This document shows positions 15,257 to 32,955 of a stretch of DNA of 33,894 nucleotides, piece by piece. A program made the translations under genes and the position numbers. Position 1 is the first letter of the stretch. Each line of letters opens with the position of its first letter. The DNA lies in IMG/VR virus record IMGVR_UViG_3300020442_003731, positions 1-33,894 of that record. One strand, 5' to 3'. Origin of the DNA: a virus. The notes beneath the pieces were generated by a model. That model was not told the origin of the DNA, searched no databases, and saw only the letters and a program-made list of their open reading frames with translations.

Positions 15257-15277
15257 TTTGATTAAATAGTGTATAAT
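15250..15277 (+). promoter_or_regulatory. Consensus sigma70 promoter of the desaturase gene
   Basis: TTGACA (15250-15255), a 16-base spacer and TATAAT (15272-15277) match the consensus fully. The start would be near 15284, only about three bases before the ATG at 15287 and downstream of the GGAG at 15278-15281, so the transcript would be nearly leaderless unless it starts further upstream. The -35 overlaps the start codon region of the divergent minus-strand gene. Confidence 0.65.
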
Positions 15278-15286
15278 GGAGTAATA

Positions 15287-17498: not shown

Positions 17499-18821
17499 AT
17501 GTATGATATATTCTATGTTGGCTCGAAATCTGATGAACAATGGCAAGTTTTCAAAGAAAATTTTCCTATAGCAAAATGCACGGATAGTGTAAAATCAGCT
17601 ACACAAAAAAGTTTAACAAAACACTTCTGGATAGTTTACCCAGATACGATAGTTACTGATTTTTCGTTTGATTATGTACCAGACGAATATAGTCAGAATG
17701 TTGCACATGTATTTCTAAACAACAATGAATATGACGGAGTAGTATTACTACCTAAAACACACAGTTACACTGATAAAGAAATACAAACTAGATTTTATGT
17801 TTCACATAAAAAAGTTGAAATTGTAGCGAGTATGCCTGCAAATTATGAAATATTTTACGTTGATACATATCAAGAATATTGTGATGCTTTTGACAAATCA
17901 AAATTTGAAATGTTTTATGTAGTTCCTAAGTATGTAGAAATACACAAAGACTTCAAATTTGATACGTATTTTTCTCACCACAATACATATGATAGGAAAA
18001 TAAATCATATGTATCTAAATGGCGAATATCATGACGGTGTAATGCTTTGTAATAAAAAAACAAGAATAAGTGAACGAGAATGGTTATTCAAATTTATTGC
18101 TGCAAAAAAAGAAATAAATGTTTTAGCAAGCACACCTAAGCCTTATGATGTTGTGTTTATAAGTTATGAAGAACCGGATGCTGATATAAACTTTGAAAAT
18201 TTGAAAAATAAAGCACCAGATGCAAAACGTGTTCATGGAGTAAAAGGAATACACCAGGCTCATATCGAAGCAGCAAAGTTATGTGATACTCCTTTCTTAT
18301 GGATTGTAGATGGAGATGCTACAATAGTTGACGATTTTGAATTTAATTATCATGTTCCTGCATGGCAACATACACATGTGCATGTTTGGAGAAGTAAAAA
18401 TCCTATTAACGGTTTAGTGTATGGTTACGGTGGAGTAAAACTATTTCCAAGAGAAGCAACTATAAACATGGATACTAGTAAACCAGATATGACAACAAGC
18501 ATAAGCGATAAATTTGTTGCTGTTAAAAAAGTTAGTAACATAACAGGATTTAACACAGGAGAATTTGAAACATGGAAAAGTGCTTTTAGAGAGTGTTGTA
18601 AACTTTCAAGTAAAATTATTGATAGACAAAAAGATGAGGAAACTGAGCGTAGATTAAAAATTTGGTGTAGTATTGGCAGAGACAAACCTTTTGGAGAATA
18701 TGCTATAAAAGGAGCTAAAGCAGGTGCAATGTACGGTGCAAGGAACAAAGGCGATGCACAAGCATTGAAAATGATTAATGATTTTGATTGGTTAAAGGAA
18801 CAGTTTGATGGAAACATATAA
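17499..18821 (+). CDS. Triple-module glycosyltransferase-like protein, two modules degenerate
   Basis: This 440-residue protein is built of three repeats of one unit: about 1-115 (YDIFYVGSKS..FWIVYPD..TDFSFDY..EYDGVVLLPK), 116-215 (YEIFYVDTYQ..FYVVPKY..KDFKFDTY..YHDGVMLCNK) and 216-440 (YDVVFISYEEP..KRVHGVKG..LWIVDGDATIVDDFEFNY..INGLVYGYGGVKLFP). Only the third keeps the D271-G-D273 motif and matches the protein at 12369-13292 over its length, so the first two are likely non-catalytic, perhaps for substrate binding or assembly. The ATG lies exactly where the promoter would start transcription; the repeat boundaries confirm that this is the N-terminus. Its 3' end overlaps the next gene. A glycosyltransferase role is inferred. 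Confidence 0.55.
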   Translation: MYDIFYVGSKSDEQWQVFKENFPIAKCTDSVKSATQKSLTKHFWIVYPDTIVTDFSFDYVPDEYSQNVAHVFLNNNEYDGVVLLPKTHSYTDKEIQTRFYVSHKKVEIVASMPANYEIFYVDTYQEYCDAFDKSKFEMFYVVPKYVEIHKDFKFDTYFSHHNTYDRKINHMYLNGEYHDGVMLCNKKTRISEREWLFKFIAAKKEINVLASTPKPYDVVFISYEEPDADINFENLKNKAPDAKRVHGVKGIHQAHIEAAKLCDTPFLWIVDGDATIVDDFEFNYHVPAWQHTHVHVWRSKNPINGLVYGYGGVKLFPREATINMDTSKPDMTTSISDKFVAVKKVSNITGFNTGEFETWKSAFRECCKLSSKIIDRQKDEETERRLKIWCSIGRDKPFGEYAIKGAKAGAMYGARNKGDAQALKMINDFDWLKEQFDGNI

Positions 18822-19851
18822 AATCCTTGATAGATTTGAATTACTGTATCCTACAGATGAAAGATTTAGTGATTTACGTAGAGCATATATAGACAAAGAT
18901 TTACATAGTATATTTAGGTTATCTAATGTTGACGATGAATATCGTAAAGCAATATTAGAAAAAAATGTTTACAGTATTTTTAGACTATGTGAAAACGCAA
19001 CAGTCCAAGGAGACATTGAAGATCTTAAAAAAGCTATTATTGATCAAAATTTGTATAGTATTTTTCGTTTGATACCTGACGATTATGAAGATCTAAAAAA
19101 AGCAGTGTGCAATGAAAATAGGAATAGCATTTACAAATTATTAGAATTAGATAGTATAAGAAAAATTGTAGAACTAGATAATCCATATGCGTTATATGAT
19201 ACATTAATAGAATACACTGACAGTCAGTTTGCTCATGCATTGAAATTTATGTTTCTTGAAGGAGTAGAATTTGATGAAGATTGTTTAAGTAGAGGACAAT
19301 TAAGAAGTAAAATTTGGCTTGTAAATGAGTTGAAAAAAATAAGTGTTGATTTAGGTGTTGTATTTTTATGTGCTGGTTGGTATGGTACATTAGCTGTAAT
19401 GTTATTTGAATCAGGAATGAGCATAGAAAAAATAAGAAGTTTTGATATCGATCCTTCTACTGAAAAAGTTGCAGAAATGTTTAACAAAAAATGGATAAGT
19501 GGCTGGAAATTCAAACCTGTTGTACAAGACATACACGATATTGACTTTGAAGAACATAACTATATAGTATTGAAAAAAGATGGTGATTTTGAAAGGCTTT
19601 GGGATATACCAAACACTATTATAAACACAAGTTGTGAACATATAGATAATTTTGAAACTTGGTATGAAAAAATACCTAGCGGTAAACTTGTTGTGTTGCA
19701 GTGTAATGATTATGATGAAATTGAAGAGCATGTAAATACACATGAAAATATAGAAAGTTTTGCACAGCAAACTCCTATGGAAACAGAATTATATAGTGGT
19801 GAAATAGACTTAGGAAAATATAAAAGGTTTATGAGAATTGGATTTAAGTAA
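18808..19851 (+). CDS. SIFRL-repeat protein with methyltransferase-like C-terminal domain
   Basis: This is a 347-residue protein. The ATG at 18808 is chosen over the TTG just before it because AAAGGAA lies 8 bases upstream. Residues 22-111 hold four copies of a 17-residue core (DLRRAYIDKDLHSIFRL at 22-38, then 44-60, 72-88 and 95-111), perhaps with a fifth weak one at 117-133; they look like short helical-pair repeats. Residues 180-300 resemble a class I SAM methyltransferase: VFLCAGWYGTLA for the glycine-rich loop and FDIDP for the acidic residue that binds the ribose. The substrate is unknown. The gene overlaps the end of the glycosyltransferase-like gene and its own stop overlaps the 74-aa ORF, so it bridges the two groups. 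Confidence 0.6.
   Translation: METYKILDRFELLYPTDERFSDLRRAYIDKDLHSIFRLSNVDDEYRKAILEKNVYSIFRLCENATVQGDIEDLKKAIIDQNLYSIFRLIPDDYEDLKKAVCNENRNSIYKLLELDSIRKIVELDNPYALYDTLIEYTDSQFAHALKFMFLEGVEFDEDCLSRGQLRSKIWLVNELKKISVDLGVVFLCAGWYGTLAVMLFESGMSIEKIRSFDIDPSTEKVAEMFNKKWISGWKFKPVVQDIHDIDFEEHNYIVLKKDGDFERLWDIPNTIINTSCEHIDNFETWYEKIPSGKLVVLQCNDYDEIEEHVNTHENIESFAQQTPMETELYSGEIDLGKYKRFMRIGFK
18871..19140 (+). repeat. Four in-frame copies of a 17-codon SIFRL repeat
   Basis: The core D-L-K-K-A-(4)-N-(2)-S-I-F-R-L recurs at spacings of 22, 28 and 23 residues. Copy 4 is degenerate (NSIYKL). The spacers differ, so the copies are old enough to have diverged at the DNA level. Confidence 0.75.
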
Positions 19852-20062
19852 TTTTTCAGTAAGACAACTACAATTAGAAAGTGCTAGAGCGTTAAGCACC
19901 ATGCAAGCAACAAATGATAATATTTGGCAGTTCAACAAAAAAGCACACCATAATAGCCAAAATTGGTATATTGCAGTAATTGATTGGTATGTAGAACAAT
20001 ACGGAGACTTGCCTAGTAAAGTAGGCCCTGGTAAGGATGTAAAGTTGATACACGATGTATAA
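19838..20062 (+). CDS. Small unknown protein (74 aa) directly upstream of an rSAM gene
   Basis: The start is probably the TTG at 19838, since no earlier ATG is in frame and the next ATG (residue 22) would remove a third of the protein; AAGG lies about 10 bases upstream. The sequence is soluble, with a helical N-terminal half (VRQLQLESARALSTMQ) and a tryptophan- and tyrosine-rich second half (NIWQFNKKAHHNSQNWYIAVIDWYVEQYG) ending in GPGKDVKLIHDV. It overlaps the methyltransferase-like gene by 14 bases and the following rSAM gene by 8. I do not recognise it. Its size and place would suit a peptide substrate or a small binding partner of the rSAM enzyme, but it lacks a clear leader/core layout. 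Confidence 0.45.
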   Translation: MDLSNFSVRQLQLESARALSTMQATNDNIWQFNKKAHHNSQNWYIAVIDWYVEQYGDLPSKVGPGKDVKLIHDV

Positions 20063-21134
20063 TTATGAAGATATACGTGTTATTCATTTAGAAAACACAC
20101 AAAATTGTCAAGCAAGTTGTCCTATGTGTGATAGGAATCAAAATGGTGGAGATATAAATCCGCACATTGATCTTAGTGAACTTACACTAGAAGATTGTAA
20201 ACGCATTTTTGAGCCAGACTTTATTGCACAATTGAAAACAATGTACATGTGTGGCAATTTAGGTGATCCTATTGTAGCACGAGATACACTTGACATATTC
20301 CGTTACTTTAGAGAACACAATAAAGACATGTGGCTTTCTATGAATACAAACGCAGGAGCAAAAAGTGTTGAATGGTGGCAAGAACTTGCCCAAGTCTTTG
20401 GTCGAATGGGTGCTGTTATTTTTAGTGTTGATGGTCTTAGTGACACTAATCATCTATACAGGCAGGGTGTTGTCTGGAACAATGTAGAACGCAACATGCG
20501 GGCATTTATAGATGCTGGCGGCAGAGCTCGTTGGGACTTCTTAATATTTGAGCACAATCAACATCAAGTTGAAGAAGCAGAAGAATTAGCAAACGCTTGG
20601 GGTTGTGAAAAGTTTATGAAAAAGAAAACTGGTAGATTTGTTACAGCAACCAGTAAAAAGAAAGAATCACATCAAGCAGTTGACCGTAAAGGCAAAGAAA
20701 CTCAAAAGTTATCCAAGCCAAAGGAAGAATTTCAAAACGAAGCAATCAAACAATACGATAAAGTAGTTGAAAAACACGGTACCATGGATGAATATTATGA
20801 TCGTGCAGAAATACATTGTAAAGTAAAAGACGAAGGTGGTTTGTTTATTACAGCCGAAGGACTTGCTATGCCTTGTTGTTGGACTGCTGGTAGAATGTAC
20901 AAATGGTGGCACAAAGATCCTAAGGTAGAACAAGTGTGGGACTTTATTGATGCTGTAGGAGGCAAAGATGCAATCAGTGCTAAGACACACGGATTACGTG
21001 CAGTGTTTGACACAGGTATTTTTAACAATATTGAAAACAGTTGGAATAAGACTAGTTGTGCAGACGGCAAATTGAAAGTTTGTAGTATGAAGTGTGGTAA
21101 AGAATTTGATCCGTTTGCATCACAATTCAAGTAA
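20055..21134 (+). CDS. Radical SAM protein with SPASM-like C-terminus (rSAM-2)
   Basis: This is a 359-residue protein. The rSAM motif lies near the N-terminus (C18-QAS-C22-PM-C25). Instead of GGEP it has GNLGDP at 67-72. Conserved stretches shared with the genes at 22394 and 30575 are WWQELA, FSVDGLSDTNHLYR (123-136), NVERNMRAFIDAGG and FEHNQHQVEEAEE. A lysine-rich insert (185-240) separates the core from the C-terminal cysteines C255, C274-C275 (MPCCW), C335, C343 and C347, which fit a SPASM-type auxiliary cluster of the kind used on peptide substrates. It overlaps the 74-aa ORF upstream by 8 bases and converges on a minus-strand rSAM gene with a 15-base overlap. The substrate is unknown. 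Confidence 0.85.
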   Translation: MYNYEDIRVIHLENTQNCQASCPMCDRNQNGGDINPHIDLSELTLEDCKRIFEPDFIAQLKTMYMCGNLGDPIVARDTLDIFRYFREHNKDMWLSMNTNAGAKSVEWWQELAQVFGRMGAVIFSVDGLSDTNHLYRQGVVWNNVERNMRAFIDAGGRARWDFLIFEHNQHQVEEAEELANAWGCEKFMKKKTGRFVTATSKKKESHQAVDRKGKETQKLSKPKEEFQNEAIKQYDKVVEKHGTMDEYYDRAEIHCKVKDEGGLFITAEGLAMPCCWTAGRMYKWWHKDPKVEQVWDFIDAVGGKDAISAKTHGLRAVFDTGIFNNIENSWNKTSCADGKLKVCSMKCGKEFDPFASQFK

Positions 21135-22367
21135 TTTTTTTAATTCAGGAAATGTCTTACTAAAGTTTGTATTTCTTAGCTTATCAAATTTATCAATGCT
21201 TTTAACAAATAATCTTTTGCGTTTAGGTAATCTTTTTGTTGGTGCGTTGAGATAACCTTTTAACATTTGTATATTCCATCCTTGAAATTTATATTTGTCA
21301 AGTTTTTCCAATTGTATATTTGCCTTGCTATGTAGTTCTTCATCTATTTGTAAAAAATCTGCTGTAAAAGGTGCTGGATCTTGCCACGGATTTATACTGA
21401 TATTATTTTTGATTTTTACATTGTCTAGATACCATGTATACAAATCATCAAGCACTAAAGCATTAAAAACACTATAGCAAGTTTGTATGTCTATTTGTAT
21501 TCCAGTTTCGTGCAATCTATTGTATGTGTTTAACCATTTCTTTTGTTTTAACCCAAATCTAATATACTCACCTCTGTCACCATGACAATCGTGACTCATT
21601 ATTATATTACAATTATCTTTCCAATGTATAAGATATTTTTCTATAATGTTTACGCCTTTGTAGGTAGTGACACTACCGTTAGTGTGTGCCCATATTTTTA
21701 TTTTTTTGTTTAATTTGTGTTTTAGTAATACATCTAATAATTCATATACACCTTCTTGCATAAAAGGTTCTCCGCCGTTAAGATGTATACGATTTATTGT
21801 ATCTTGATGCTTTAGTATATAATCTATTTTTTTATCGTTATAATTTTGCCATTCTTCTGTAGGCATACTACCTGGTTTTAAGTCTCTAACAACTTCATAC
21901 GCTTCGTTGTAGTTTTGTGCTATCGTGCTACTTAGTGTGCTGTTGCATCCCATACATGCAAAATTACATTTATTTGTCCAAAGTAAATCAAGCCAAGTTG
22001 GTGTTTGAGTTTTCAGAGTTCCGTCTTTTGAGGTATTTTTTATAGCTTTGTTTATTTGTTCAGCACCATATTCATTTACTTGTTGTCTTACAGGAGATAT
22101 CTGTCCAGTCATTGATTCCATGCGTGAACAACTATTGCATTGTTCTGGAAAACGGTTCTGTAAAAAATCTCTTCTTATTTCTTTTGCTGCTTCACTGTTG
22201 ACAATGTCCTCAAAAGGTGTTATATTATTATTGTAACCTATTGCATCCATTGTAGCACAACAGGTGCTTATGCGGTTAAACTGACCTTCATACAAACTTG
22301 TAAAAGGTGCAGCACAAAAGTTTGATCCATATTTCTTTAATGGATCTTTGCTGAAAAAGGTAAACAT
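21120..22367 (-). CDS. Radical SAM protein with N-terminal twitch-like module (rSAM-3), minus strand
   Basis: This is a 415-residue protein. The N-terminal module has C18, C36-C37, C77 and C80 (EQCNSCSRME). The rSAM motif is C134-NFA-C138-MG-C141 and GGEP is at 198-201, followed by HTNGSVTT. The C-terminus ends NTNFSKTFPELKKLLEL, matching the FPEM tail of two other rSAM proteins in the window. It is the only minus-strand rSAM gene. A perfect late box (TATAAATA, minus strand, 22373-22380) lies so close that transcription would begin on the start codon, so the mRNA may be leaderless; no ribosome site or alternative in-frame start is visible. The substrate is unknown. Confidence 0.83.
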   Translation of the reverse strand: MFTFFSKDPLKKYGSNFCAAPFTSLYEGQFNRISTCCATMDAIGYNNNITPFEDIVNSEAAKEIRRDFLQNRFPEQCNSCSRMESMTGQISPVRQQVNEYGAEQINKAIKNTSKDGTLKTQTPTWLDLLWTNKCNFACMGCNSTLSSTIAQNYNEAYEVVRDLKPGSMPTEEWQNYNDKKIDYILKHQDTINRIHLNGGEPFMQEGVYELLDVLLKHKLNKKIKIWAHTNGSVTTYKGVNIIEKYLIHWKDNCNIIMSHDCHGDRGEYIRFGLKQKKWLNTYNRLHETGIQIDIQTCYSVFNALVLDDLYTWYLDNVKIKNNISINPWQDPAPFTADFLQIDEELHSKANIQLEKLDKYKFQGWNIQMLKGYLNAPTKRLPKRKRLFVKSIDKFDKLRNTNFSKTFPELKKLLEL

Positions 22368-22393: not shown

Positions 22394-23440
22394 ATGAAAA
22401 TTGAACTAGAAATTACAAGTGATTGCAATGCAGCATGTCCTGGGTGTGCTAGGACTTTGAATTCTGACATCTTGAAAATACAAAGTTTTACGCTACAAGA
22501 TTTATATCGTATATTTTCACCAATGGATGTAAGAGGTAATCAATTCAAGTTTTGCGGAGTATTAGGTGATCCTATAGTAAATCCTGACTTCCTAAAAATG
22601 GCAGATTATATAACACATTATGATGGATACGTAGAAGTTAGCACAAACGGTGGCTACAACAGTGCAGACTGGTGGCGTGAACTAGGCACTATAGCAGCAA
22701 ATCATCCTGGCATGTTACATATACATTTTTGTGCAGACGGACATAAAGAAACAAATCACATCTATCGTGTCAATACAAAATGGAACGTTGTCGAACGCAA
22801 CATGCAAGCCTTTGCTGAAACTGCACCAGAACAACATGCAACTTGGATTTATATTGTGTTTGATCACAACGAGCATGAATTAGATACAGCAAGAGAACAT
22901 GCAAAAAAGTTAGGATTTAACTTTGCCACACGCACAGGTATGCGTAACAGTTATCATCAATGGATAGCACAAATAGGCAAAAAGAATAATAAAACCAAAA
23001 AAGTTATTACCACAACAAAAGTTGAACATAGCAAAAAAGATGTTATGAAAGAAATTGATAATTTTATCAAAGACCATAAAGACAACAAAGTTGATGATAC
23101 TGCAAAGCAAGAAATGTTAGATAGTATTGTATGTAAATATATTCATGAAGATGAAGTATTTGTTGCAAGTGACCTAACCATGTGGCCTTGTTGTTTTTTA
23201 TATGACAGTGCTTTTAAGAATAAAGAAGGTATAGTTGATAAATTAAATCAATTTGAACCCGGTTGGAATAGTTTACGTAAGCATAGTGTAAATGGTATCA
23301 AACATCATCCTTGGTATAAGAAACTACTACAAGAAAGTTGGGATCCTGATCATCCGTTGCACTTTAATCGTTGTATCAAAACTTGTGCAAAAAATAAAGC
23401 ATACCATAATGAGATAAAATATGAAAAAGTATTACCATAA
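22394..23440 (+). CDS. Radical SAM protein with SPASM-like C-terminus (rSAM-4)
   Basis: This is a 348-residue protein and a paralogue of the genes at 20055 and 30575. The rSAM motif is at the very N-terminus (C11-NAA-C15-PG-C18). GGEP is replaced by GVLGDP (55-60). The shared stretches are DWWRELG, HFCADGHKETNHIYR, NVVERNMQAF and FDHNEHELD. A lysine-rich insert (195-245) precedes C247, C266-C267 (WPCCF), C327 and C331. The ATG at 22394 has no ribosome site; a late-like box gives a 16-base leader. Its 3' end overlaps the sulfotransferase gene by 20 bases, so the two are probably made together. The product and substrate are unknown. Confidence 0.85.
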   Translation: MKIELEITSDCNAACPGCARTLNSDILKIQSFTLQDLYRIFSPMDVRGNQFKFCGVLGDPIVNPDFLKMADYITHYDGYVEVSTNGGYNSADWWRELGTIAANHPGMLHIHFCADGHKETNHIYRVNTKWNVVERNMQAFAETAPEQHATWIYIVFDHNEHELDTAREHAKKLGFNFATRTGMRNSYHQWIAQIGKKNNKTKKVITTTKVEHSKKDVMKEIDNFIKDHKDNKVDDTAKQEMLDSIVCKYIHEDEVFVASDLTMWPCCFLYDSAFKNKEGIVDKLNQFEPGWNSLRKHSVNGIKHHPWYKKLLQESWDPDHPLHFNRCIKTCAKNKAYHNEIKYEKVLP

Positions 23441-23993
23441 AAATTCGCCTACTCTAATTTATTGCCCGCCTAAATGCGGAAATGTAACATTAGAATTTTC
23501 TGGATATTTTCAAGATGAAGAAAAACCTGTAAAAAGAAAAATATTATTAATTAGAGATCCAATGGAAAGATTTGTCAGTGGCTATTTGTATCTGTTGTTT
23601 CAAAATAAAATAAGATTGAAAAGAGGTGCCAAACCGGCCGATCATACATTAAAATATACAAGGGAAGGATTTTCATTATTTGTTAATGAACACTTATATT
23701 ATCCTGTGATCAATAGATGGTACGATACACATGTTGAGCCGCAAATTAATTTTCATAAAAGATATCCTGTACCATTAGACGATGTAGAATTAATAGAAAC
23801 AAAAAATTTATCTAAATTAATGAAATCTTTAGAACCTGGCTGGGAACCACAAATATTAAACAGGAGTCAGATGAAATTTATTTTTCCTAACGAGGATTTA
23901 TTTGAGAATTGTAGATACAGATGGAATTCATTATTTGAAGATGATATAGCACATTATAAAAAACTTCGTAAACGGTTGGATAAAACCTCTTGA
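23421..23993 (+). CDS. Sulfotransferase (PAPS-dependent, sulfotransferase family 2-like)
   Basis: This is a 190-residue protein. YCPPKCGNVTLE (14-25) fits the 5'-phosphosulfate loop and LLIRDPMERFVSGYLYL (42-58) fits the 3'-phosphate-binding motif of sulfotransferases, which move a sulfuryl group from PAPS to a hydroxyl or amine, often on a sugar. It is short for the family, and the lysine of the loop is preserved (K18). There is no signal peptide or membrane anchor, so it is probably cytoplasmic. It overlaps the upstream rSAM gene by 20 bases and precedes the next rSAM gene by 15. Embedding in an rSAM run suggests that it acts on the same product, which is inference. Confidence 0.75.
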   Translation: MKKYYHKNSPTLIYCPPKCGNVTLEFSGYFQDEEKPVKRKILLIRDPMERFVSGYLYLLFQNKIRLKRGAKPADHTLKYTREGFSLFVNEHLYYPVINRWYDTHVEPQINFHKRYPVPLDDVELIETKNLSKLMKSLEPGWEPQILNRSQMKFIFPNEDLFENCRYRWNSLFEDDIAHYKKLRKRLDKTS

Positions 23994-24008: not shown

Positions 24009-25406
24009 ATGAAGCATGTTTCCGATACATTTTGTTTATTACCTTGGGTGCATCTAAGCACAAGACCAGATGGTAGTATGAGAGTTTGCTGCACAGCTAA
24101 TGCTAGTTCAGTTGGACCTACCAATGACAAAGAACACGGTGGTCAAGTTGGTATCCTAAAAGATGATGAAGGAAGACCAAACAATCTCAACGTGAGTGAT
24201 TTCCAAACTGCTTGGAACAGTGATTATATGAAGAATGTTCGCAAGCAAATGCTAAACGGAGAAAAGCCGCCTAGTTGTCTTAAATGCTACAAAGAAGAAG
24301 CAGCAGGACATCGTAGCAAACGTATGTGGGAAACACATTACTGGAGCCAACGTGTTGACGTAGATAAAATACTAGAAGATACAAACGAAGATGGTAGTGT
24401 GCCTCCTAACTTGGCATATATCGATTTGCGTTTTGGAACCAAGTGTCAGTTAGCATGTGTTATGTGTAGCCCACATGATAGTTCGGGTTGGATAAAAGAT
24501 TACAAAGCAATTTTTCCTGCTGTAAAAAATGAATCACTAAAAGAAATAATGCAATGGGAAAACAAAGGCAGCACCAATGGTAGCAGCTACAATTGGCACA
24601 AACAAAATCCTGTGTTTTGGCAACAGTTTTATGAACAAATGCCTAGTATGCAGCAAATTTATTTTGCTGGCGGTGAAAGCCTTATCATTGAAGAACATTA
24701 CGAAATACTTGAAGAAGCAATACGTAGAGGGTTGGCAAAAGATTTAGAATTGCGTTACAACTCAAACGGTGTTGAATGGAGAGAAGACTTATTTGATCTT
24801 TGGAAAGAATTCAAGCTAGTGCGTTTTCACTATTCAATAGACAGCATAAAGAAAATGAATGACTACATACGTTATCCAAGTGAATGGAAACGACAAGAAG
24901 AAGTTTTCCGTATACTTGATACACAAACTAGCGATAACGTAGAAGTAACTATTGCATGTGCAGTACAAGCTCTTAATATACATTACTTGCCAGATTTTAT
25001 ACAATGGAAACTAGAGCAAGGGTATAGGAAAATAAATATGTGGCCATTTGGTGCAGGTGGTATAAGCCAGCACTTTGTTTATTGGCCTGCACATCTAAAC
25101 GTTAAAGTATTACCCAAATGGTTCAAAGAAGAAACAAGACGCAAGTATGAAGCATGGTATCCTTGGTGGGAACAAAATTGGGAACTTGGTATTCCTAGTT
25201 GGCACAAAGGAAAAGTTACATATGAACAATTCCGCAGTGCTGAGTATGGAATAAAAAGATTAGATGGTATACTCAATTTTATGGACAGTGAGGATTGGAG
25301 TAGACGCTTGCCTGAAATGAAAGAGTTTTTGGATTTATGTGACAAGCAACGTGGCATAACATTTGCAGAAACATTTCCAGAAATGAAAGGAATATTTGAT
25401 GTTTGA
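24009..25406 (+). CDS. Radical SAM protein with N-terminal twitch-like module (rSAM-5)
   Basis: This is a 465-residue protein, the longest rSAM in the window. The opening FCLLPWVHLSTRPDGSMRVCC gives C9 and C27-C28, with C90 and C93 (SCLKCYKEE) completing the module. The rSAM motif is C146-QLA-C150-VM-C153; GGEP is altered to GGES (221-224). The C-terminal region contains LPEMKEFLDLC and then FAETFPEMKGIFDV, a doubled form of the tail seen in the rSAM genes at 13292 and 21120. It starts the unbroken plus-strand operon that runs to the right edge. It is followed, with an 8-base overlap, by a QueC-like gene, a pairing that repeats with the next rSAM. The substrate is unknown. Confidence 0.86.
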   Translation: MKHVSDTFCLLPWVHLSTRPDGSMRVCCTANASSVGPTNDKEHGGQVGILKDDEGRPNNLNVSDFQTAWNSDYMKNVRKQMLNGEKPPSCLKCYKEEAAGHRSKRMWETHYWSQRVDVDKILEDTNEDGSVPPNLAYIDLRFGTKCQLACVMCSPHDSSGWIKDYKAIFPAVKNESLKEIMQWENKGSTNGSSYNWHKQNPVFWQQFYEQMPSMQQIYFAGGESLIIEEHYEILEEAIRRGLAKDLELRYNSNGVEWREDLFDLWKEFKLVRFHYSIDSIKKMNDYIRYPSEWKRQEEVFRILDTQTSDNVEVTIACAVQALNIHYLPDFIQWKLEQGYRKINMWPFGAGGISQHFVYWPAHLNVKVLPKWFKEETRRKYEAWYPWWEQNWELGIPSWHKGKVTYEQFRSAEYGIKRLDGILNFMDSEDWSRRLPEMKEFLDLCDKQRGITFAETFPEMKGIFDV

Positions 25407-26235
25407 AGAAATTAAAAAATTATATGAAGATCAAAATTTTATACAAATGTATGAAAAGTTTCATGCAAAGAAATATCCAGACAGACATGATGTAAATGGT
25501 TTACCGTTTCATTTTGATGCAGCCTTTCAACGTGTAGGATTAAGTCTAAGTGGCGGTGCAGATAGCACGATATTGTTTTATATGTTGTGTAAGTTAATCG
25601 AAGATACAGGAAGTAAATGCAAAATCATGCCAACCACAGCAGTGAGATTTCATGATACAAAACCTTGGCTTGAAATAGCACCAAAAAATGTTTATGCATA
25701 TATGAAAGAACGTTTTCCGGATATTGTTTTAGAACACGATTGGTATTTTATTCCTCCTGATCTAGAAGTTGTAAAAATGAAAAAATTAGGGTTACGTCAT
25801 CTAAATAAACTATTACCTACGGATAAAATGTTTACCGATGTTCTTTGCACTATAAGTTACAACGACTACCTTTCTAAAAAACAAAAATTGCAATTTATGT
25901 ATAGCGGAACCACTATGAATCCCCCAGAAGAATATGATAACGCACCGCAATTTAGAAATTCAGAAATTGTAAAAAACAGTATAGATCAAGTTATATCTGC
26001 ATCATTTATAAATCCTTTTGCTCTTGTTACAAAAGATTACACTATGGCACAATACGAAAATTATCAAGTTCAAGATTTACTTGATATGACCAGAAGCTGT
26101 GAAGCTGATACAAAAGTGCTAGGCGAAATGTGGATGCACATCGAAGACGAAGAACCACCTGCTTGTGGTTATTGTTTTTTCTGTAAGGAACGTCAGTGGG
26201 GTGTAGATAATCAGGACAAGTATCTTATCAAATGA
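25399..26235 (+). CDS. QueC-like PP-loop ATPase, first copy
   Basis: This is a 278-residue protein. VGLSLSGGADSTILF carries the N-type ATP pyrophosphatase loop (SGGADS at 51-56), which adenylates a carboxylate or similar group. C234 and C256-GY-C259-FF-C262-KERQWG match the zinc-binding cysteines of QueC (7-cyano-7-deazaguanine synthase). The purine-recognition stretch of E. coli QueC (GYPDCR) is not seen, so a different substrate is likely; YSGTTMNPP occupies a similar place. The start is the ATG at 25399, with GAAAGGAA 6 bases upstream, rather than the preceding TTG. A paralogue lies at 27478. It overlaps both flanking rSAM genes. PreQ0 synthesis, amidation or nucleobase attachment are possible, not shown. 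Confidence 0.7.
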   Translation: MFEEIKKLYEDQNFIQMYEKFHAKKYPDRHDVNGLPFHFDAAFQRVGLSLSGGADSTILFYMLCKLIEDTGSKCKIMPTTAVRFHDTKPWLEIAPKNVYAYMKERFPDIVLEHDWYFIPPDLEVVKMKKLGLRHLNKLLPTDKMFTDVLCTISYNDYLSKKQKLQFMYSGTTMNPPEEYDNAPQFRNSEIVKNSIDQVISASFINPFALVTKDYTMAQYENYQVQDLLDMTRSCEADTKVLGEMWMHIEDEEPPACGYCFFCKERQWGVDNQDKYLIK

Positions 26236-27485
26236 GTTTACCATGCTACTATGCACTTGGTGGTATAAACTTCAAAAATGGTTTTGTTACTAGTTGTCCA
26301 CAACAAAGTGATCAACTTGTAATACTTGAAGATCAATACATTCCAAGTAAATTTATCAACAGTGCAAATTTCAAACAACATCGCAAACAGTTGATGAGCG
26401 GTAGTTTTCCGCACGGTTGCGATATGTGTGAACGTGTTGAATGTGCAAATAGTGGCACAAGTATGCGACAGGAAGAACCTGTTAGTTTAGATTATTACAA
26501 TGAAAATGGTAGCATAGATTTTTTAGGTTTACGCACAGCAGAAATACGTTTTAGTCATAGTTGCAATATGAGTTGTTTGCATTGTAGTATGGTGTTCAGC
26601 AGCGGCTGGATGACAAAACTAAAACGCTATGAAAGCGACAACGAAGATAGACAACATCAATTACATCAACTTACTGGTGCCATGCACAGAAAGTCTCCAG
26701 ACGATGATTTGACAATGAGTATAAGCACAGAACGTGCTATAGAAATTGTTGAAGACTTGAATAAAAATTTTCCTAATCTTGAACGTGTTGATTTTGCAGG
26801 TGGAGAAGTGTTATACCAAAAACAATTCTTTCCTACACTTGAAAAATTAAGTGAACATCCAAATGCGCAAAATATGTTGATATTGTTTCATACAAATTTT
26901 AATGCAGACTTTGATCCAGAAAGACTAAGTAATCTCTTGCAAAAATTTGGAAAAAGTATTATAATGATAAGTGTAGATGCAGGACCACGTATATACCCAT
27001 ATTTTAGGCAAGGCGATTGGAACAAGTTGAATGAAAATATAAAAGCATTTAGGGCAATAAATAAAAAAACTGAAGTAAACACTGTTTGCACCACAGGCAC
27101 ATATCAAGTAATGGAAATACAAGACACGTTTGCTGGCTTGTTAACATTAGATGTAGATTGGATAAACAGTAGTATTGTGTTTACACCTGATTACTTGAAT
27201 CCAGCACTTATGCTTAGACACTTTGAGCAAGATACTATGAACGATATTGAAAAAACAAAACAATACATTATCGATTTAAGAGATGTAAAAAGGACTAAAA
27301 AAATAAGTGCATTAGATGCATTAGAAAATATCAAAAAGTATATTACAAATCATAGAACACAAGAATCACATTGGGACGCATTTAAGGTATACATTAGAAA
27401 AAGTGACAGTATATGGAAACAAGATTTTAATCAACATATACAAAACTATAAATTCATAGACGGAGAGATCGTTAGAAATGTATGA
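26232..27485 (+). CDS. Radical SAM protein with N-terminal twitch-like module (rSAM-6)
   Basis: This is a 417-residue protein between the two QueC-like genes. C5, C22, C63 and C66 (HGCDMCERVE) make the N-terminal module; the second position has one cysteine rather than the CC seen in most others. The rSAM motif is C111-NMS-C115-LH-C118; the SAM motif is GGEV (190-193) instead of GGEP. VDAGPRIYPYFRQGDW corresponds to the S(V/I)D segment of the relatives. The C-terminus lacks the FPEM tail. It overlaps the upstream gene by ATGA (26232-26235) without a clear ribosome site, so it probably depends on coupled translation. The deviations suggest a specialised member; the reaction is unknown. Confidence 0.82.
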   Translation: MSLPCYYALGGINFKNGFVTSCPQQSDQLVILEDQYIPSKFINSANFKQHRKQLMSGSFPHGCDMCERVECANSGTSMRQEEPVSLDYYNENGSIDFLGLRTAEIRFSHSCNMSCLHCSMVFSSGWMTKLKRYESDNEDRQHQLHQLTGAMHRKSPDDDLTMSISTERAIEIVEDLNKNFPNLERVDFAGGEVLYQKQFFPTLEKLSEHPNAQNMLILFHTNFNADFDPERLSNLLQKFGKSIIMISVDAGPRIYPYFRQGDWNKLNENIKAFRAINKKTEVNTVCTTGTYQVMEIQDTFAGLLTLDVDWINSSIVFTPDYLNPALMLRHFEQDTMNDIEKTKQYIIDLRDVKRTKKISALDALENIKKYITNHRTQESHWDAFKVYIRKSDSIWKQDFNQHIQNYKFIDGEIVRNV

Positions 27486-28302
27486 AACAAACAATAACTT
27501 TTACAAAAATCTTTCTGAAGATGTTCTATTAACTAATGTAAGCCATTTGGATATTCCTTTTATGACAAGTTGGAATAAAATAGGCGTAAATCTAAGTGGA
27601 GGTGCTGATAGTGCATTGTTAACATATTTGCTTTGCACAATAATAGAAAAAAATAAATTATCAACACAAGTTGAAATAATCACATATCAACGTTGTTGGG
27701 AAACAAGGCCTTGGCAAGGAGATGTTGCTACAAATGTTTTCATGTGGTTAATGAATAAGTTTCCTAAAATAATTAGCAAAAGGCATCTTTGCTATATTCC
27801 TCCAGAATTAGAACACGGAGTAATAGGACCTATACATGAAGGAAGAAGTGGTGATCAAATTATTGTAGGCAGTTATAATAAGTTTGCTGCTTGGAATTAC
27901 AAACTAGATGCAGTCTATAATGCTACAAGTAAAAATCCTGATGATTTACGTGATGACAGAATGCGTAACAGAGACAAAGATGCTGAAGATGGAAATGTTA
28001 AAGATTTATGGTGGGAAAGTAGAAAAGTAAAAAGTGTCTTTGTACATCCGTTTAGATTTGTAAAAAAAGATTGGATTGTTGCTCAATATCATATACACAA
28101 CATTTTAGGATTATACAATACAACAAGAAGTTGCGAAGGTGATATAAATCATCATGATGTTGTTAAACAAGCATGTGGACATTTTAGAGATTATAAAACA
28201 AACATGAAAATACCAGAGTGTGGTGAATGTTGGTGGTGTGAAGAACGTGAATGGGCAAACAATAGAGCAGCAAGTGTAATAAAGGAAATTAATGAGTTTT
28301 GA
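27478..28302 (+). CDS. QueC-like PP-loop ATPase, second copy
   Basis: This is a 274-residue paralogue of the gene at 25399. VNLSGGADSALLTYLLC gives the PP-loop (SGGADS at 40-45). TTRSCEGD (C219) and ECGECWWCEEREWA (C248, C251, C254) match the corresponding TRSCEAD and CGYCFFCKERQWG of the first copy. C233 is extra. The middle segments differ strongly (NATSKNPDDLRDDRMRNRD here), so the two probably act on different partners or as a heteromer. The ribosome site GGAGAG (27462-27467) lies about 10 bases before the ATG. It overlaps the upstream rSAM stop by 8 bases and the downstream rSAM start by 11. Keeping two copies argues for two separate steps. Confidence 0.7.
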   Translation: MYETNNNFYKNLSEDVLLTNVSHLDIPFMTSWNKIGVNLSGGADSALLTYLLCTIIEKNKLSTQVEIITYQRCWETRPWQGDVATNVFMWLMNKFPKIISKRHLCYIPPELEHGVIGPIHEGRSGDQIIVGSYNKFAAWNYKLDAVYNATSKNPDDLRDDRMRNRDKDAEDGNVKDLWWESRKVKSVFVHPFRFVKKDWIVAQYHIHNILGLYNTTRSCEGDINHHDVVKQACGHFRDYKTNMKIPECGECWWCEEREWANNRAASVIKEINEF

Positions 28303-29449
28303 TACTATAGACTTGCTAAGTGGCAAAGTATTTCAAGTCACTTGGGATACAGGAAGACGCTGCAATTACGATTGCAGTTATTGTCCAGCACACAGACATG
28401 ACAATTTTAGTAAACACGCAACATTAGAAGAGTTAAAAAACAATGTAGATTTTCTATATGAATATACCGATTTGTATATGCAATATAGAAATCACAAAGT
28501 TGCAAGTTTTGGCTTTACTGGAGGCGAACCTACAGTCAATCCTAACTTTATTCCTTTTGCTCAATATTTGAAAAATCAATACGATGAAAAATATGCTGAT
28601 CGTTGGGAAGCAGGATTTGCTCTAACTACCAATGGTGCTATGAGCGAGAAGATGGGATTTGCAGTAATGGAAAATTTTGGCCATGCTACTGTAAGTTACC
28701 ATGCAGAAAGTGACAATAAATTAAAGCAGCAAGTCAAAGATAGAATTATGCAGTTCCAATATTCAGGAGAATTGTTTAATTTTACTGTAAGTGTAAATGT
28801 TATGTTTCATGCAGAATATTTCGACGAATGTGTTGAGCTTTGTGAATTTTTGAAAGCACATGAAGTTGATTTTGTGCCACGAGTAATAGGAGAAGAACCT
28901 GACAGCCGTCCAACATTTGCACACAAATACAGTGAAGAACAGTTAGCATGGATGAAAAACTACTGGAAACAAAAAAATGATGCTACCTATGCCAATAGTG
29001 CTGCTAGTGATGTGGTAAAAAATGCAAAAAAACTTGGCAACAGCATTGGAAGACCATGCTGCGGTAGTAGAGACATGTTGTTGACACTTGGAAATGAAAG
29101 TCGAAAAAGCAATTTTGTAGATTTTAGACAATTCCAAGGCTGGAGTTGCAGCGTAAATTGGTTTTTCTTACACTTAGAACAGCAAACCGATAGTATCTAT
29201 CACCATCAAACGTGTCAAGCTCGCTTTGACAACCGTCGAGGACCCATAGGCAAGCTCAGCGAGGGCAAAAAATTGATAGCAGAACTAAAAGATATGCTCG
29301 AAAATAACCGTATGCCTATAATACAGTGTCCTAAACACACCTGCGGGTGCGGATTGTGTGCGCCAAAAAGCAAATTTGAAGAAAAGTTTGTTGAAACACT
29401 AGGTAATCATGTAGACATAGGAGTTTTACAAACAAATGTGGAAACATAG
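28292..29449 (+). CDS. Radical SAM protein with cysteine-rich SPASM-like C-terminus (rSAM-7)
   Basis: This is a 385-residue protein. The rSAM motif C24-NYD-C28-SY-C31 and a canonical GGEP (77-80) are present, with TTNGAMS and VSYHAES after them. It differs from the other C-terminal-cysteine proteins here in having GGEP and no lysine-rich insert. C-terminal cysteines are C256-C257, C286, C308, C346, C351, C353 and C356 (CPKHTCGCGLCAP), enough for one or two auxiliary clusters of SPASM type. The ATG has the ribosome site AAAGGAAA (28281-28288). It overlaps the QueC-like gene upstream and the rSAM gene downstream by 14 bases. SPASM enzymes most often modify peptides; here that remains inference. 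Confidence 0.85.
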   Translation: MSFDTIDLLSGKVFQVTWDTGRRCNYDCSYCPAHRHDNFSKHATLEELKNNVDFLYEYTDLYMQYRNHKVASFGFTGGEPTVNPNFIPFAQYLKNQYDEKYADRWEAGFALTTNGAMSEKMGFAVMENFGHATVSYHAESDNKLKQQVKDRIMQFQYSGELFNFTVSVNVMFHAEYFDECVELCEFLKAHEVDFVPRVIGEEPDSRPTFAHKYSEEQLAWMKNYWKQKNDATYANSAASDVVKNAKKLGNSIGRPCCGSRDMLLTLGNESRKSNFVDFRQFQGWSCSVNWFFLHLEQQTDSIYHHQTCQARFDNRRGPIGKLSEGKKLIAELKDMLENNRMPIIQCPKHTCGCGLCAPKSKFEEKFVETLGNHVDIGVLQTNVET

Positions 29450-30575
29450 ATGTGTTTTACCGTTTCATCATATGGCTATACGTCCTGACGGGGGTATTCG
29501 TCCTTGCTGCTACTTCAGAGAAGAAACAGTTCCAGACGATTTGAACACTGCACATGACGATCCGTTCAACCATCCGTTCATGTTAGACGTGCGTGAGCGT
29601 ATGCTCAAAGACGAATATATAGAAGGATGTAGTAAATGCTATGCTGATGAACAAGCAAGCGGTAAAAGTATGCGGACTGATATGAACTCACCGTTTACAG
29701 AGTTTGGACTACCAAAAGAAAACAGAGGTGAAATACCAAAACTAACAAATTTAGATTTAGCATTTAGTAATGTGTGCAATAACAAGTGTAGGATGTGCGG
29801 TCCGGAGTTAAGCACACAATGGTATAGTGATGCTAAGAAAATGAATTATGGGTTTGAGCAGCGCGGAGTGTTAGCTCGTAATAGTATTGTTGAAGATTAT
29901 GATTTACAAGACTTGCGTTTTATAAAATTGCTCGGCGGTGAGCCTCTCATGGAGCAAGATAAATTTATAAAATTATTAAGCAAGTGTAACTTGTCTGAAT
30001 TAACACTACTACTGGTTACTAATACTACACATAGACCAAATGAACAACTTACTGAGTTGTTCAAACAGTGTAAAAAAATGACTATAACATTTAGTATTGA
30101 TAGTTATGGTGAAATGAACGACTTCTTACGTAAAGGTAGTGATTGGAAACAAGTAGAAGAAAATGTGCAATGGTATAAAGAAACGTTTGCTGATTATCCT
30201 ATTGATTTGAGTGTGCATAGTATAGCAAGTATATACAATATAAATCAAATTGAAGAATTAATTATGTGGTGTTTGAAAAACAAATTATATCATAACTATG
30301 TAGTAGTTGATGGACCAAATTGGATTATGCCAAGGCACATACCAGATCCTGTAAAACAAGAACTTATACCAGAACTACAGAAACGTGCTGACAGTTATGG
30401 GCGTAATGGAAAAATATTCAAGTTATTGATAAGCGAACTTGAAAACACTGGCGATTTTGGCATGTTTATACGCAATGATATTAGACTAAATGGTATACGT
30501 AAAGAGGATTGGAAGAAACTTAATCCTTGGTTATGGCGTAAAATACAAAAATATATAGTGCCTGAGATTTTGTAA
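29436..30575 (+). CDS. Radical SAM protein with N-terminal twitch-like module (rSAM-8)
   Basis: This is a 379-residue protein. CVLPFHHMAIRPDGGIRPCC provides C6 and C24-C25, and EGCSKCYADE gives C65 and C68. The rSAM motif is C114-NNK-C118-RM-C121, followed by GPE, and GGEP lies at 167-170. The CRMCGP stretch is shared with the gene at 31618. FSIDSYGEMNDFLRKGSDW corresponds to the SIDS..NDYIRYPSEW of rSAM-5. It is shorter at the C-terminus than its relatives and lacks the FPEM tail. AGGAG at 29419-29423 is about 12 bases from the ATG, a long spacing. Its stop shares a base with the next ATG (TAATG). The substrate is unknown. Confidence 0.85.
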   Translation: MWKHRCVLPFHHMAIRPDGGIRPCCYFREETVPDDLNTAHDDPFNHPFMLDVRERMLKDEYIEGCSKCYADEQASGKSMRTDMNSPFTEFGLPKENRGEIPKLTNLDLAFSNVCNNKCRMCGPELSTQWYSDAKKMNYGFEQRGVLARNSIVEDYDLQDLRFIKLLGGEPLMEQDKFIKLLSKCNLSELTLLLVTNTTHRPNEQLTELFKQCKKMTITFSIDSYGEMNDFLRKGSDWKQVEENVQWYKETFADYPIDLSVHSIASIYNINQIEELIMWCLKNKLYHNYVVVDGPNWIMPRHIPDPVKQELIPELQKRADSYGRNGKIFKLLISELENTGDFGMFIRNDIRLNGIRKEDWKKLNPWLWRKIQKYIVPEIL

Positions 30576-31621
30576 TGTATTTAGATATTAAAGAAATAAC
30601 AAAAATACAAATAGATCATACAAGCAGATGTAATTGTATGTGTCCTCAATGTGCCAGAGTGGTAGATGGAAAAATAGTTAATCCTAGTATGCCAATCGCA
30701 GATTTGACCTTAGATGATTACAAAATTTTATTAGAGCCATTTGATAATATTCAATTGTTTCATTGTGGCAACTATGGCGATGCTTTGGTTAGTCCTACTT
30801 GGGACGAAACATTTGATTATAGTTTGACAAAAACAAAAAAGATACGTATTGCAACAAATGGTAGTATGCGTACAACTGACTGGTGGCGTGAGCTTGCACA
30901 AAAAGGCGGCAACAAAGTCAATGTTATTTTTAGTGTAGATGGATTAGCCGACACAAATCATTTGTATCGTGTAGGAAGTAATTTTGAGAAAATAATGGAA
31001 AATGCACAAGCATATATTGATGCTGGTGGACATGCTGAATGGGCATTTATAGAATTCAAACACAATTATCATCAAATTGAAGAAGCAGAACGCATTGCAA
31101 AAGAAATGGGATTTGTCAAATTTAGTGCAAAGTATACAGCAAGGTTTGCAGATCAAGATCAAAAAACAACCGAAACACGTAAAGGCAACACAGTAGAAGA
31201 AAAAGAAAATCAAAACACACAAGACAAAATAGATATACGTAAAAAATATAAAACTTTTGACGAATATGTTGAAAATGCTCCAATTACTTGTAAGTATAAA
31301 AAAGATAAAACAGTATTTGTAGATATGTGTATGAAACTGTGGCCTTGTTGTTGGTTAGGAGCACCCGAATATTTTCATAGACCAACACAACAAACAAAAA
31401 GTTTTGATCATTTATTTGATTTATATGGAAAAGATTTTAATGATATGAGAAAACACGGATGGAGTGTTTTTGAACATGACTTTTTCCAAAACTATTTAGA
31501 TAAATCCTGGAATGCTCAAACACAAAAGTATAAACGCATATATACTTGTGGCAGGACCTGCGGAGATAAGTTTGAATTTAGTAGCGGGCATGGAAAAAAT
31601 ATACAAAGCGAGATGTTATGA
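30575..31621 (+). CDS. Radical SAM protein with SPASM-like C-terminus (rSAM-9)
   Basis: This is a 348-residue paralogue of the genes at 20055 and 22394. The rSAM motif is C19-NCM-C23-PQ-C26, with an additional C21. In place of GGEP it has GNYGDA (65-70), the most altered of the three. DWWRELA, FSVDGLADTNHLYR, YIDAGG and FKHNYHQIEEAE match the relatives. The lysine- and glutamate-rich insert (195-225) precedes C239, C258-C259 (LWPCCW), C325 and C329. The start shares one base with the upstream stop, and its end overlaps the next rSAM gene by four bases. It lies between two N-terminal-module rSAM genes, so the two classes alternate here. The substrate is unknown. Confidence 0.85.
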   Translation: MYLDIKEITKIQIDHTSRCNCMCPQCARVVDGKIVNPSMPIADLTLDDYKILLEPFDNIQLFHCGNYGDALVSPTWDETFDYSLTKTKKIRIATNGSMRTTDWWRELAQKGGNKVNVIFSVDGLADTNHLYRVGSNFEKIMENAQAYIDAGGHAEWAFIEFKHNYHQIEEAERIAKEMGFVKFSAKYTARFADQDQKTTETRKGNTVEEKENQNTQDKIDIRKKYKTFDEYVENAPITCKYKKDKTVFVDMCMKLWPCCWLGAPEYFHRPTQQTKSFDHLFDLYGKDFNDMRKHGWSVFEHDFFQNYLDKSWNAQTQKYKRIYTCGRTCGDKFEFSSGHGKNIQSEML

Positions 31622-32955
31622 ATAAAGCATGGTGTCCATTACCTTGGTTAGGATTAAATGTTAGAAACAACGGTGACATAAGAGTTTGCTGTAATGCAAA
31701 CGTGAGCGAAAATCAAGGGCTTATTTCTAAACCTGACGGTACCTATTATAATTTAGGAAAAGACAGCATACAAGATTTTCGCAACGCTGATCTTATGAAA
31801 GAAATACGTGTGAGTATGCTTAAAGGAGAGTATCACGAAAGTTGTATACGCTGTAAACGTGAAGCAGAATCAGGTATGGAAAGTCGTGCAGATTGGGAAC
31901 GTGCTATTTGGCATCATAGACTAACAGAACAAAAAGCCAAGGAAATAACTGATGAAGATGGCACAATAAATGCTATAGATAATCCTATAAAATATATGGA
32001 TTTAAGATTTGGAAATTTATGTAATCTAAAATGTCGCATGTGTGGCCCGACTGACAGTAATATGTGGTATGAAGATACTGTAAAATTATGGGGTCCACAA
32101 TATACTGATAGCGGACAAAAAATAAAACTTATAAAAAATACAAAAGGTAAACATCAGCCCGATGTTGATATTTACAGTTGGTATGAAAATCCATTGTTTT
32201 GGAAAGATCTTGAACAGGAAATTCCTGTTGTTGAACGATTGTATATTGTTGGCGGAGAACCTTTAATGATTGATCAGCATTATGAGTTTTTGCAAAAATG
32301 TATTGATGCAGGTCGTGCTAATAAAATTATAATAGAATACAACACAAATATTACAAACATACCAGAACGTGCTTGGAATATTTGGAAGCATTTTGAACGT
32401 GTACAAATAGGAATGAGTGTTGATGCTGTAGGTCCTATAAATGATTACATACGCAATCCAAGCAAATGGTGGAAGATTGAAGAAAACATGCGCAAGTTAG
32501 ATAATGCAGAAGGTGAATTTAAGATTTGGTGGGCTGCAACTATCCAAGCATACAACTTACTACATTTGCCGGAAATGATGATGTGGAAAATACAGCAAAA
32601 CTTCAAGCGTATAAATGTTGAAGTAAAACATAAAAGTGTTATAAGTCCACATCCATTACACAATCCTAAATTCTTAAATATAAAAGTTTTTCCTAAAGAA
32701 AGTAAGCATTGGATTGAAAATTATTTTAATGATTGGAAGATACGTGCAGAATTAGATATTGATAATAATCTAAATAAAAAACATTTTTGTAAAATATTAG
32801 ACACATATATAAAATATATGTGGGCAGATGATTATAGTGATCAATTAGAAAAATTCTGGCACTACACTAAAACATTAGATACATCACGTAATGAAAACCT
32901 AAAAGATGTAAGTCCAAAAACTTGGGAATTACTTTTAGGAGAACAGTATGCATGA
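31618..32955 (+). CDS. Radical SAM protein with N-terminal twitch-like module (rSAM-10)
   Basis: This is a 445-residue protein. WCPLPWLGLNVRNNGDIRVCC gives C6 and C24-C25; ESCIRCKREAESG gives C76 and C79. The rSAM motif is C135-NLK-C139-RM-C142 followed by GPTDS, and GGEP is at 212-215. It resembles rSAM-5 (24009) along its length: YMDLRFGNLC against YIDLRFGTKC, SWYENPLFWKDL against NWHKQNPVFWQQF, and NDYIRNPSKWWKIEENMR against NDYIRYPSEWKRQEEVFR. It is therefore a close paralogue, but it keeps GGEP and lacks the FPEM tail. ATGA overlaps the upstream stop and the next rSAM start lies inside its end by 8 bases. The substrate is unknown. Confidence 0.86.
   Translation: MNKAWCPLPWLGLNVRNNGDIRVCCNANVSENQGLISKPDGTYYNLGKDSIQDFRNADLMKEIRVSMLKGEYHESCIRCKREAESGMESRADWERAIWHHRLTEQKAKEITDEDGTINAIDNPIKYMDLRFGNLCNLKCRMCGPTDSNMWYEDTVKLWGPQYTDSGQKIKLIKNTKGKHQPDVDIYSWYENPLFWKDLEQEIPVVERLYIVGGEPLMIDQHYEFLQKCIDAGRANKIIIEYNTNITNIPERAWNIWKHFERVQIGMSVDAVGPINDYIRNPSKWWKIEENMRKLDNAEGEFKIWWAATIQAYNLLHLPEMMMWKIQQNFKRINVEVKHKSVISPHPLHNPKFLNIKVFPKESKHWIENYFNDWKIRAELDIDNNLNKKHFCKILDTYIKYMWADDYSDQLEKFWHYTKTLDTSRNENLKDVSPKTWELLLGEQYA

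Follow-up and report, generated by a model that had tools for sequence, protein, structure and literature searches.

The stretch analysed here, referred to as the window, is a virus record of 33,894 bases from IMG/VR (IMGVR_UViG_3300020442_003731), in which four genes alternate between radical S-adenosylmethionine (radical SAM, rSAM) enzymes and QueC-like PP-loop ATPases, in the order rSAM-A, PP1, rSAM-B and PP2. This arrangement, with genes overlapping by a few bases, had been described in an initial annotation made from the sequence alone, and both its coordinates and the successive overlaps of 8, 4 and 8 bases were confirmed. A further radical SAM gene, rSAM-C, overlaps PP2 by 11 bases and extends the pattern to rSAM-PP-rSAM-PP-rSAM. 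The ATG of PP1 lies at 25399, the listed open reading frame opening at a TTG 3 bases upstream, and the encoded proteins comprise 278 (PP1) and 274 (PP2) amino acids. The four genes belong to an island holding an rSAM array, which includes 11 genes with radical SAM matches in the window (Pfam, NCBIfam and PHROGs) and runs past its right end, while tail and virion genes are found upstream of the island.

When viral metagenomes were searched for the same rSAM/QueC-like adjacency, the layout was found again in dozens of contigs, a linkage conserved among relatives that cannot be put down to chance. Named phages gave no match for PP1, PP2 or rSAM-C, nor for the four-gene stretch at the DNA level, and rSAM-A was matched at 20% only, in two Vibrio phages. 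Scans for promoters and terminators remained at chance level. The window is a piece of an environmental jumbo myovirus, because a 202-amino-acid protein (1293-1901) resembles proteins of jumbo myoviruses (Sinorhizobium phage Phosso, 56%; Agrobacterium phage Atu_ph07, 55%; Salmonella phage Munch, 44%) and related viral records reach up to 246 and 342 kb. The record itself is not part of a longer genome sequence.

Fold and zinc site of PP1 and PP2

Neither PP1 nor PP2 has a curated family match in Pfam, NCBIfam, PHROGs or PADLOC. Against the QueC family PF06508, whose gathering score is 22 bits, PP1 reached 12.2 bits and PP2 gave no match, and sequence searches of the PDB returned nothing significant. 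An AlphaFold model of PP2 (predicted local distance difference test score, pLDDT, 94.0; predicted template modelling score, pTM, 0.92) was compared with the PDB (VIA), and QueC came first with a Z of 14.7 and a root-mean-square deviation of 3.4 over 190 aligned residues, followed by Cap9 (Z 13.5), TilS (MesJ; 13.3), NcsA (12.8) and QatC (12.6), rows no more than 1 Z apart being counted as tied. Foldseek placed NcsA at rank 1 with QueC alongside. Among the VIA matches, a C-terminal zinc site of the kind seen in PP1 and PP2 occurs in QueC, Cap9 and QatC (PMC13329287, PMC13279940). When profiles were compared, eight QueC proteins of phages were matched at a probability of 93-95%, with E values of 1.5e-8 and 3.5e-7.

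Both proteins carry SGGADS and a C-terminal TRSC...CxxCxxC, and in an alignment of 46 relatives SGGADS, P191, K197, T216, SCE (218-220) and CxxCxxC are invariant (PP2 numbering), as are the lysine of PF(x)4K and TxSCE across the PP family. The zinc cysteines are likewise invariant, with a first spacing longer than that of the canonical QueC motif C(x)nCxxCxxC. Fold matches, profile comparison and the invariant motif together sustain the initial description of QueC-type PP-loop proteins with zinc cysteines, and PP1 and PP2 are assigned as PP-loop ATPases that have the fold and the zinc site of QueC, the fold being modelled for PP2, and that form a clade of their own. The published QueC signature consists of YxQxHxxE, VPxRN and YPDC (PMC13329287), and none of the three is conserved in the PP family by alignment and profile comparison. 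In QueC and Cap9, the 7-deazaguanine base is recognised by the Tyr and Asp of the YPDC-type motif (PMC13279940); because these residues are not conserved, the PP substrate is probably not 7-carboxy-7-deazaguanine (CDG) held in the established manner.

Coupling of radical SAM and PP enzymes

The NCBIfam family NF033640 ("twitch domain-containing radical SAM", N-terminal module) has a cut-off of 170 bits, which is exceeded by rSAM-A (421 bits) and rSAM-B (196 bits), in agreement with their earlier designation as N-terminal-module enzymes, and is not reached by rSAM-C (32.6 bits). The cluster cysteines of all three are invariant. At 257 of its 465 positions rSAM-A is at least 97% identical across 52 sequences, and rSAM-C has at least 580 viral relatives.

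Neighbours were counted in viral loci for 96 distinct proteins of the PP family, 89 of which have a readable 5' neighbour. A radical SAM gene lies directly 5' on the same strand in 75 of these 89, compared with an rSAM background of 53% in the loci, and the gap to the 5' neighbour is at most 20 nt in 85 of 89. In loci collected from rSAM-C, and not from PP2, rSAM-B was never found without PP2 (32 of 32 rSAM-B genes are accompanied by it); 7 loci have PP2 but not rSAM-B, and another 4 have neither, rSAM-C there following rSAM-A directly or nearly so. Moreover, rSAM-B and PP2 form a single reading frame of 827-873 amino acids in four loci (L048, L049, L096 and L109). Judged by their co-occurrence, joint absence and fusion, rSAM-B and PP2 function jointly, as a cassette inside a conserved rSAM backbone, and the expectation that rSAM and QueC-like enzymes work as pairs is strengthened by the adjacency counts and the four fusions. 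A match of the fusion N-terminus to BtrN (E 0.25) was too weak and was taken as chance. The module was observed in another combination on a small contig of a Rhodobacteraceae bin (L145 1-3459), where a PP gene, a probable nitroreductase, an rSAM-like gene and a probable methyltransferase gene follow one another.

Counterpart islands in Bdellovibrionota

A scan of bacterial genomes turned up three PP genes on one Bdellovibrionales contig; the PP family is carried by 6 of 141 genomes of that order and 7 of 369 of that phylum. The island of genome G241 lies on a contig of 349 kb, flanked by EF-Tu on one side and by rpl/rpoBC genes on the other, and that of G100 on a 936-kb contig after murA and serS, these housekeeping genes being named by sequence inspection; in G026 the island adjoins serS/murA. 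The G241 and G100 islands are chromosomal. It was found that rSAM-A is 59-61% identical in two Bdellovibrionota chromosomes and rSAM-C 38-42% identical in Bdellovibrionota, and that the window genes from 12369 onward match these islands, while none of the window tail genes does.

Two further gene arrangements were noted beside cellular PP genes. At L164 3083-6780 and L162 7236-10939, PP adjoins CysC/CysD/CysN-like and sulfotransferase-like genes, and the PP match holds one in-frame stop in each genome. In G026, G127 and G241, a PP gene precedes genes for two hydrophobic proteins, one small and one larger. Such conserved pairs in Bdellovibrionota lie at L142 7042-8506, L161 10254-11877 and L169 17614-19063; the larger protein of L169, the only one tested, has no Pfam family.

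Genes of the 7-deazaguanine pathway

The window holds no queD, queE, folE or TGT gene, and the pathway was also followed in 18 related records, all of them fragments. FolE was found in 9 of the 18, mostly adjoining a QueE-like gene, and QueD in only 3, whereas TGT was found in none; canonical QueC was likewise missing from these records. As the records are fragments, such absences are weak evidence. The FolE and QueE-like genes lie tens of kb from the island, in a separate genome region, and the QueE-like cluster motif (CNFRCMNFG or CNFRCQNFG) lacks the third cysteine of CxxxCxxC, for which reason the protein may be a non-radical variant. Ordinary preQ0 synthesis is thus unlikely, as the initial annotation had held: the records show no TGT and no canonical QueC, QueD is limited to three of them, and the PP proteins are without the motif that recognises CDG.

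Glycan- and lipid-type neighbour genes

The features of the island are collected in Table 1. The model of the gene at 12369 (pLDDT 85) has its best PDB matches nearly all among GT-A enzymes, with Z up to 10.1, and its DxD-type motif is present as an invariant DGD in the alignment with the homologue at 17499-18821; by its predicted fold, the protein is GT-A glycosyltransferase-like. In Bdellovibrionota, the island neighbours include UDP-glucose/GDP-mannose dehydrogenase, GT2 and PMT-like transferases, desaturase and TauD dioxygenase, and also an SIS-domain phosphoheptose-isomerase-like protein, UDP-GlcNAc 2-epimerase, MBOAT and carbamoyltransferase. Judged from their sequences alone, genes resembling CysC/CysD/CysN and sulfotransferases stand beside PP in G102 and G103. 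Among the phage islands, a UDP-sugar dehydrogenase is encoded in L036 and a GATase/Asn-synthase amidotransferase in L008.

Three observations on single genes may be added. The glutamine-amidotransferase/asparagine-synthase of L008 (3156-4430) represents a second kind of PP-loop enzyme, directly upstream of rSAM-A. The window protein at 18805-19851 contains repeated "NLYSIFRL"-like units. The gene at 14630-15292 (minus strand) shows weak similarity to N-acyl amino acid synthase (FeeM) and adjoins the fatty acid desaturase gene, two neighbours that suggest a lipid branch of the island.

Table 1. Features of the island in the window, and QueE-like genes in related jumbo-phage records
Feature	Position	Strand	Evidence
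GT-A-fold glycosyltransferase-like protein, left edge of island	12369-13292	+	predicted fold; invariant DGD
Radical SAM (twitch type)	13292-14665	+	PF04055 26 bits; phrog_14086
Fatty acid desaturase-like	15269-16033	+	PF00487 62 bits; 39% in G241 chromosome island
Second GT-A-type protein, homologue of 12369-13292	17499-18821	+	common invariant columns including DGD; 39-41% in Bdellovibrionota
Conserved island protein, no known family	18805-19851	+	34 phage loci; 32-40% in Bdellovibrionota
Radical SAM, island backbone	20055-21134	+	PF04055 32 bits; 43% in Bdellovibrionota
Radical SAM	21120-22367	-	PF04055 28.8 bits
Radical SAM, island backbone	22394-23440	+	PF04055 22.6 bits; 32-35% in Bdellovibrionota
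Sulfotransferase-like	23421-23993	+	PF03567 24.8 bits (cut-off 22)
rSAM-A, twitch-domain radical SAM, most conserved gene of island	24009-25406	+	NF033640 421 bits
PP1, QueC-fold PP-loop ATPase with C-terminal zinc cysteines, optional PP2 paralogue	25399-26235	+	SGGADS, TRSC..CxxCxxC; family A1 member
rSAM-B, twitch-domain radical SAM, PP2 partner	26232-27485	+	NF033640 196 bits
PP2, QueC-fold PP-loop ATPase with zinc site (by model)	27478-28302	+	AlphaFold model; 48 viral loci
rSAM-C, radical SAM, cysteine-rich C-terminal region, island backbone	28292-29449	+	PF04055 39 bits
Radical SAM (twitch type)	29436-30575	+	NF033640 255.6 bits
Radical SAM	30575-31621	+	PF04055 27 bits; 52-57% in Bdellovibrionota
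Radical SAM (twitch type)	31618-32955	+	NF033640 365 bits; 42-45% in Bdellovibrionota
Radical SAM, truncated by contig end	32948-33892	+	NF033640 123 bits over partial protein
QueE-like beside FolE, jumbo-phage relatives	L054 3786-4682 (-); L055 6058-6951; L057 5599-6471 (-); L059 4432-5325 (-)		

Proposed function and its alternatives

PP-loop ATPases of the QueC fold adenylate a carboxylate or an amide and transfer a nitrogen nucleophile, which is ammonia in the case of QueC. By analogy, PP1 and PP2 would adenylate a substrate carboxylate, with conversion of ATP to AMP and PPi, and pass the activated group to ammonia or an amine, giving an amide or a further N-product. The partner of each would be the twitch-type radical SAM enzyme whose gene immediately precedes it; the two would work one after the other on a common intermediate, a small molecule or a glycan, to which the rSAM enzyme would apply radical chemistry before or after amidation. 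PP2 and rSAM-B would then be a swappable two-enzyme cassette between rSAM-A and rSAM-C, hosted by an island of ten or more radical SAM enzymes, GT-A glycosyltransferases, a desaturase and a sulfotransferase, and this island, next to tail-fibre genes, may build and diversify a surface glycan or glycolipid, of the host envelope in infection or of the virion. A carboxylated sugar would be a natural candidate substrate, because the island includes a uronic-acid-forming dehydrogenase, and the blocking of competing phages is a possible benefit of such decoration.

That the island decorates a surface glycan or lipid, a radical SAM enzyme remodelling a building block whose carboxylate the QueC-like enzyme amidates, is the reading preferred here, at a confidence just short of even. 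It departs from the initial suggestion of a modified base or a base-protein conjugate, since the comparative context points to surface-glycan and lipid chemistry. More broadly, and somewhat more tentatively, an undescribed module of twitch radical SAM enzyme and QueC-fold ATP-dependent ligase is proposed, an interchangeable cassette in a radical-enzyme-rich island passed between marine jumbo phages and Bdellovibrionota chromosomes, with a diversified product (glycan, glycolipid or metabolite) and new chemistry.

Several points weigh against the preferred reading. Many SPASM/twitch radical SAM enzymes modify peptides. Identity between the PP proteins of Bdellovibrionota and those of phages is no higher than 22-25%, the rSAM-B matches there are equally weak (22-25%), and an in-frame stop lies inside the matched PP stretch in G102 and G103. 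The neighbour counts are phylogenetically non-independent, and because the island is rich in radical SAM genes anyway, adjacency alone is weaker than it looks. The glycosyltransferase assignment rests on a predicted fold, since a profile of the glycosyltransferase alignment (A2) found no relatives in the PDB, and a complete polymerase, flippase or export set was not seen in the window.

It is possible, though unlikely, that the product is a secondary metabolite, a small molecule either diffusible or intracellular, whose scaffold would be built by the backbone radical SAM enzymes and varied by the rSAM-B/PP cassette. The backbone-plus-cassette architecture agrees with this, and the desaturase, nitroreductase, TauD, carbamoyltransferase and amidotransferase genes would suit natural-product clusters, much as was proposed for a jumbo cyanophage cluster (PMC7824862). 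However, no polyketide synthase, non-ribosomal peptide synthetase or dedicated exporter was recognised among the annotated genes, and the UDP-sugar dehydrogenase, glycosyltransferases and sulfation genes suit glycans more directly.

A little less probable again is the modification of proteins or peptides, for instance tail fibres, in which PP would join a small acid to a protein amine in the manner of Cap9. The frequent use of peptides as targets by twitch/SPASM enzymes and the tail genes upstream are consistent with it, and the QueC-fold Cap9 and, as proposed, QatC act on protein N-termini (PMC13279940). Nevertheless, no conserved short precursor gene adjoins the module, the Tyr/Asp motif for CDG binding is missing, and the cellular islands lack phage tail genes.

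The synthesis of a modified nucleobase for DNA or RNA, an amide or nitrile of the 7-deazaguanine type, is improbable: QueC-like enzymes do turn a carboxylate into an amide and a nitrile, and FolE is present in half of the related records, but TGT is lacking and QueD scarce there, the QueE-like protein is without its third cluster cysteine and encoded far from the module, the three QueC signature motifs are not conserved, and the cellular islands are not beside nucleotide-modification genes. Lowest of all stands the view of the PP proteins as ATP-dependent sulfur-transfer or tRNA-modifying enzymes (TilS/TtuA/LarE type) with radical SAM genes as unrelated neighbours, for which the Z values of TilS/MesJ and NcsA near that of QueC, the Foldseek rank of NcsA and weak matches to TilS models can be cited, against the invariant C-terminal QueC-type zinc motif, the four rSAM fusions and the lack of tRNA-modification neighbours.

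Relation to known systems

PP1 and PP2 share with canonical QueC the fold, SGGxDS, the C-terminal zinc cysteines and PF(x)4K, but they differ from it in scoring below the Pfam cut-off, in the three missing motifs, in having no queD/TGT partners and in being linked or fused to twitch radical SAM enzymes. Cap9 of type IV CBASS and QatC of qatABCD are, like them, zinc-bearing PP-loop ATPases of the QueC fold that have been diverted from preQ0 synthesis. Unlike those two, however, PP1 and PP2 have phage-borne rSAM partners; they also lack the YxDC CDG site of Cap9 and the N- and C-terminal extensions of QatC, which has about 400 amino acids. The link to QatC/CBASS defence mentioned in the initial annotation was not supported, as PADLOC gave no match for PP1 or PP2 and neither extensions nor partner genes were recognised; no CD-NTase was present among the Pfam/PHROG matches of the window genes, for which no dedicated search was made.

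A PP-loop zinc amidotransferase works in lipopolysaccharide (LPS) synthesis (PMC10607449), and the N-acetyl sugar amidotransferases (WbpG/PseA/LpNASAT) resemble PP1 and PP2 as PP-loop enzymes with a zinc tetracysteine in surface-polysaccharide decoration, although their zinc motif is CxxC(x)6CxC as opposed to the C-terminal CxxCxxC and homology was not detected. While rSAM-A and rSAM-B are clear members of NF033640, a family for which no function came to light in this analysis, what sets them apart in the island is their pairing with a QueC-fold ATPase, or their fusion to one. The host-recognition cluster of pelagimyophages holds rSAM cassettes and LPS genes (PMC7029224) and jumbo phages carry surface-polysaccharide clusters (PMC7824862), so that variable cassettes of rSAM or polysaccharide genes close to tail fibres have precedents. 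The rSAM/QueC-like cassette, its fusion, the QueC-fold clade and the island shared with Bdellovibrionota were not described in the literature searched.

Significance

QueC-fold enzymes have recently proved to be repurposed in immunity, and PP1 and PP2 represent another branch of this fold, viral and tied to radical SAM enzymes even by fusion. The four rSAM-B::PP2 fusion proteins offer a compact tool for finding the substrate. Shared by phages and Bdellovibrionota chromosomes, an island with at least ten radical enzymes hints at a wide field of unexplored chemistry at the surface between phage and host.

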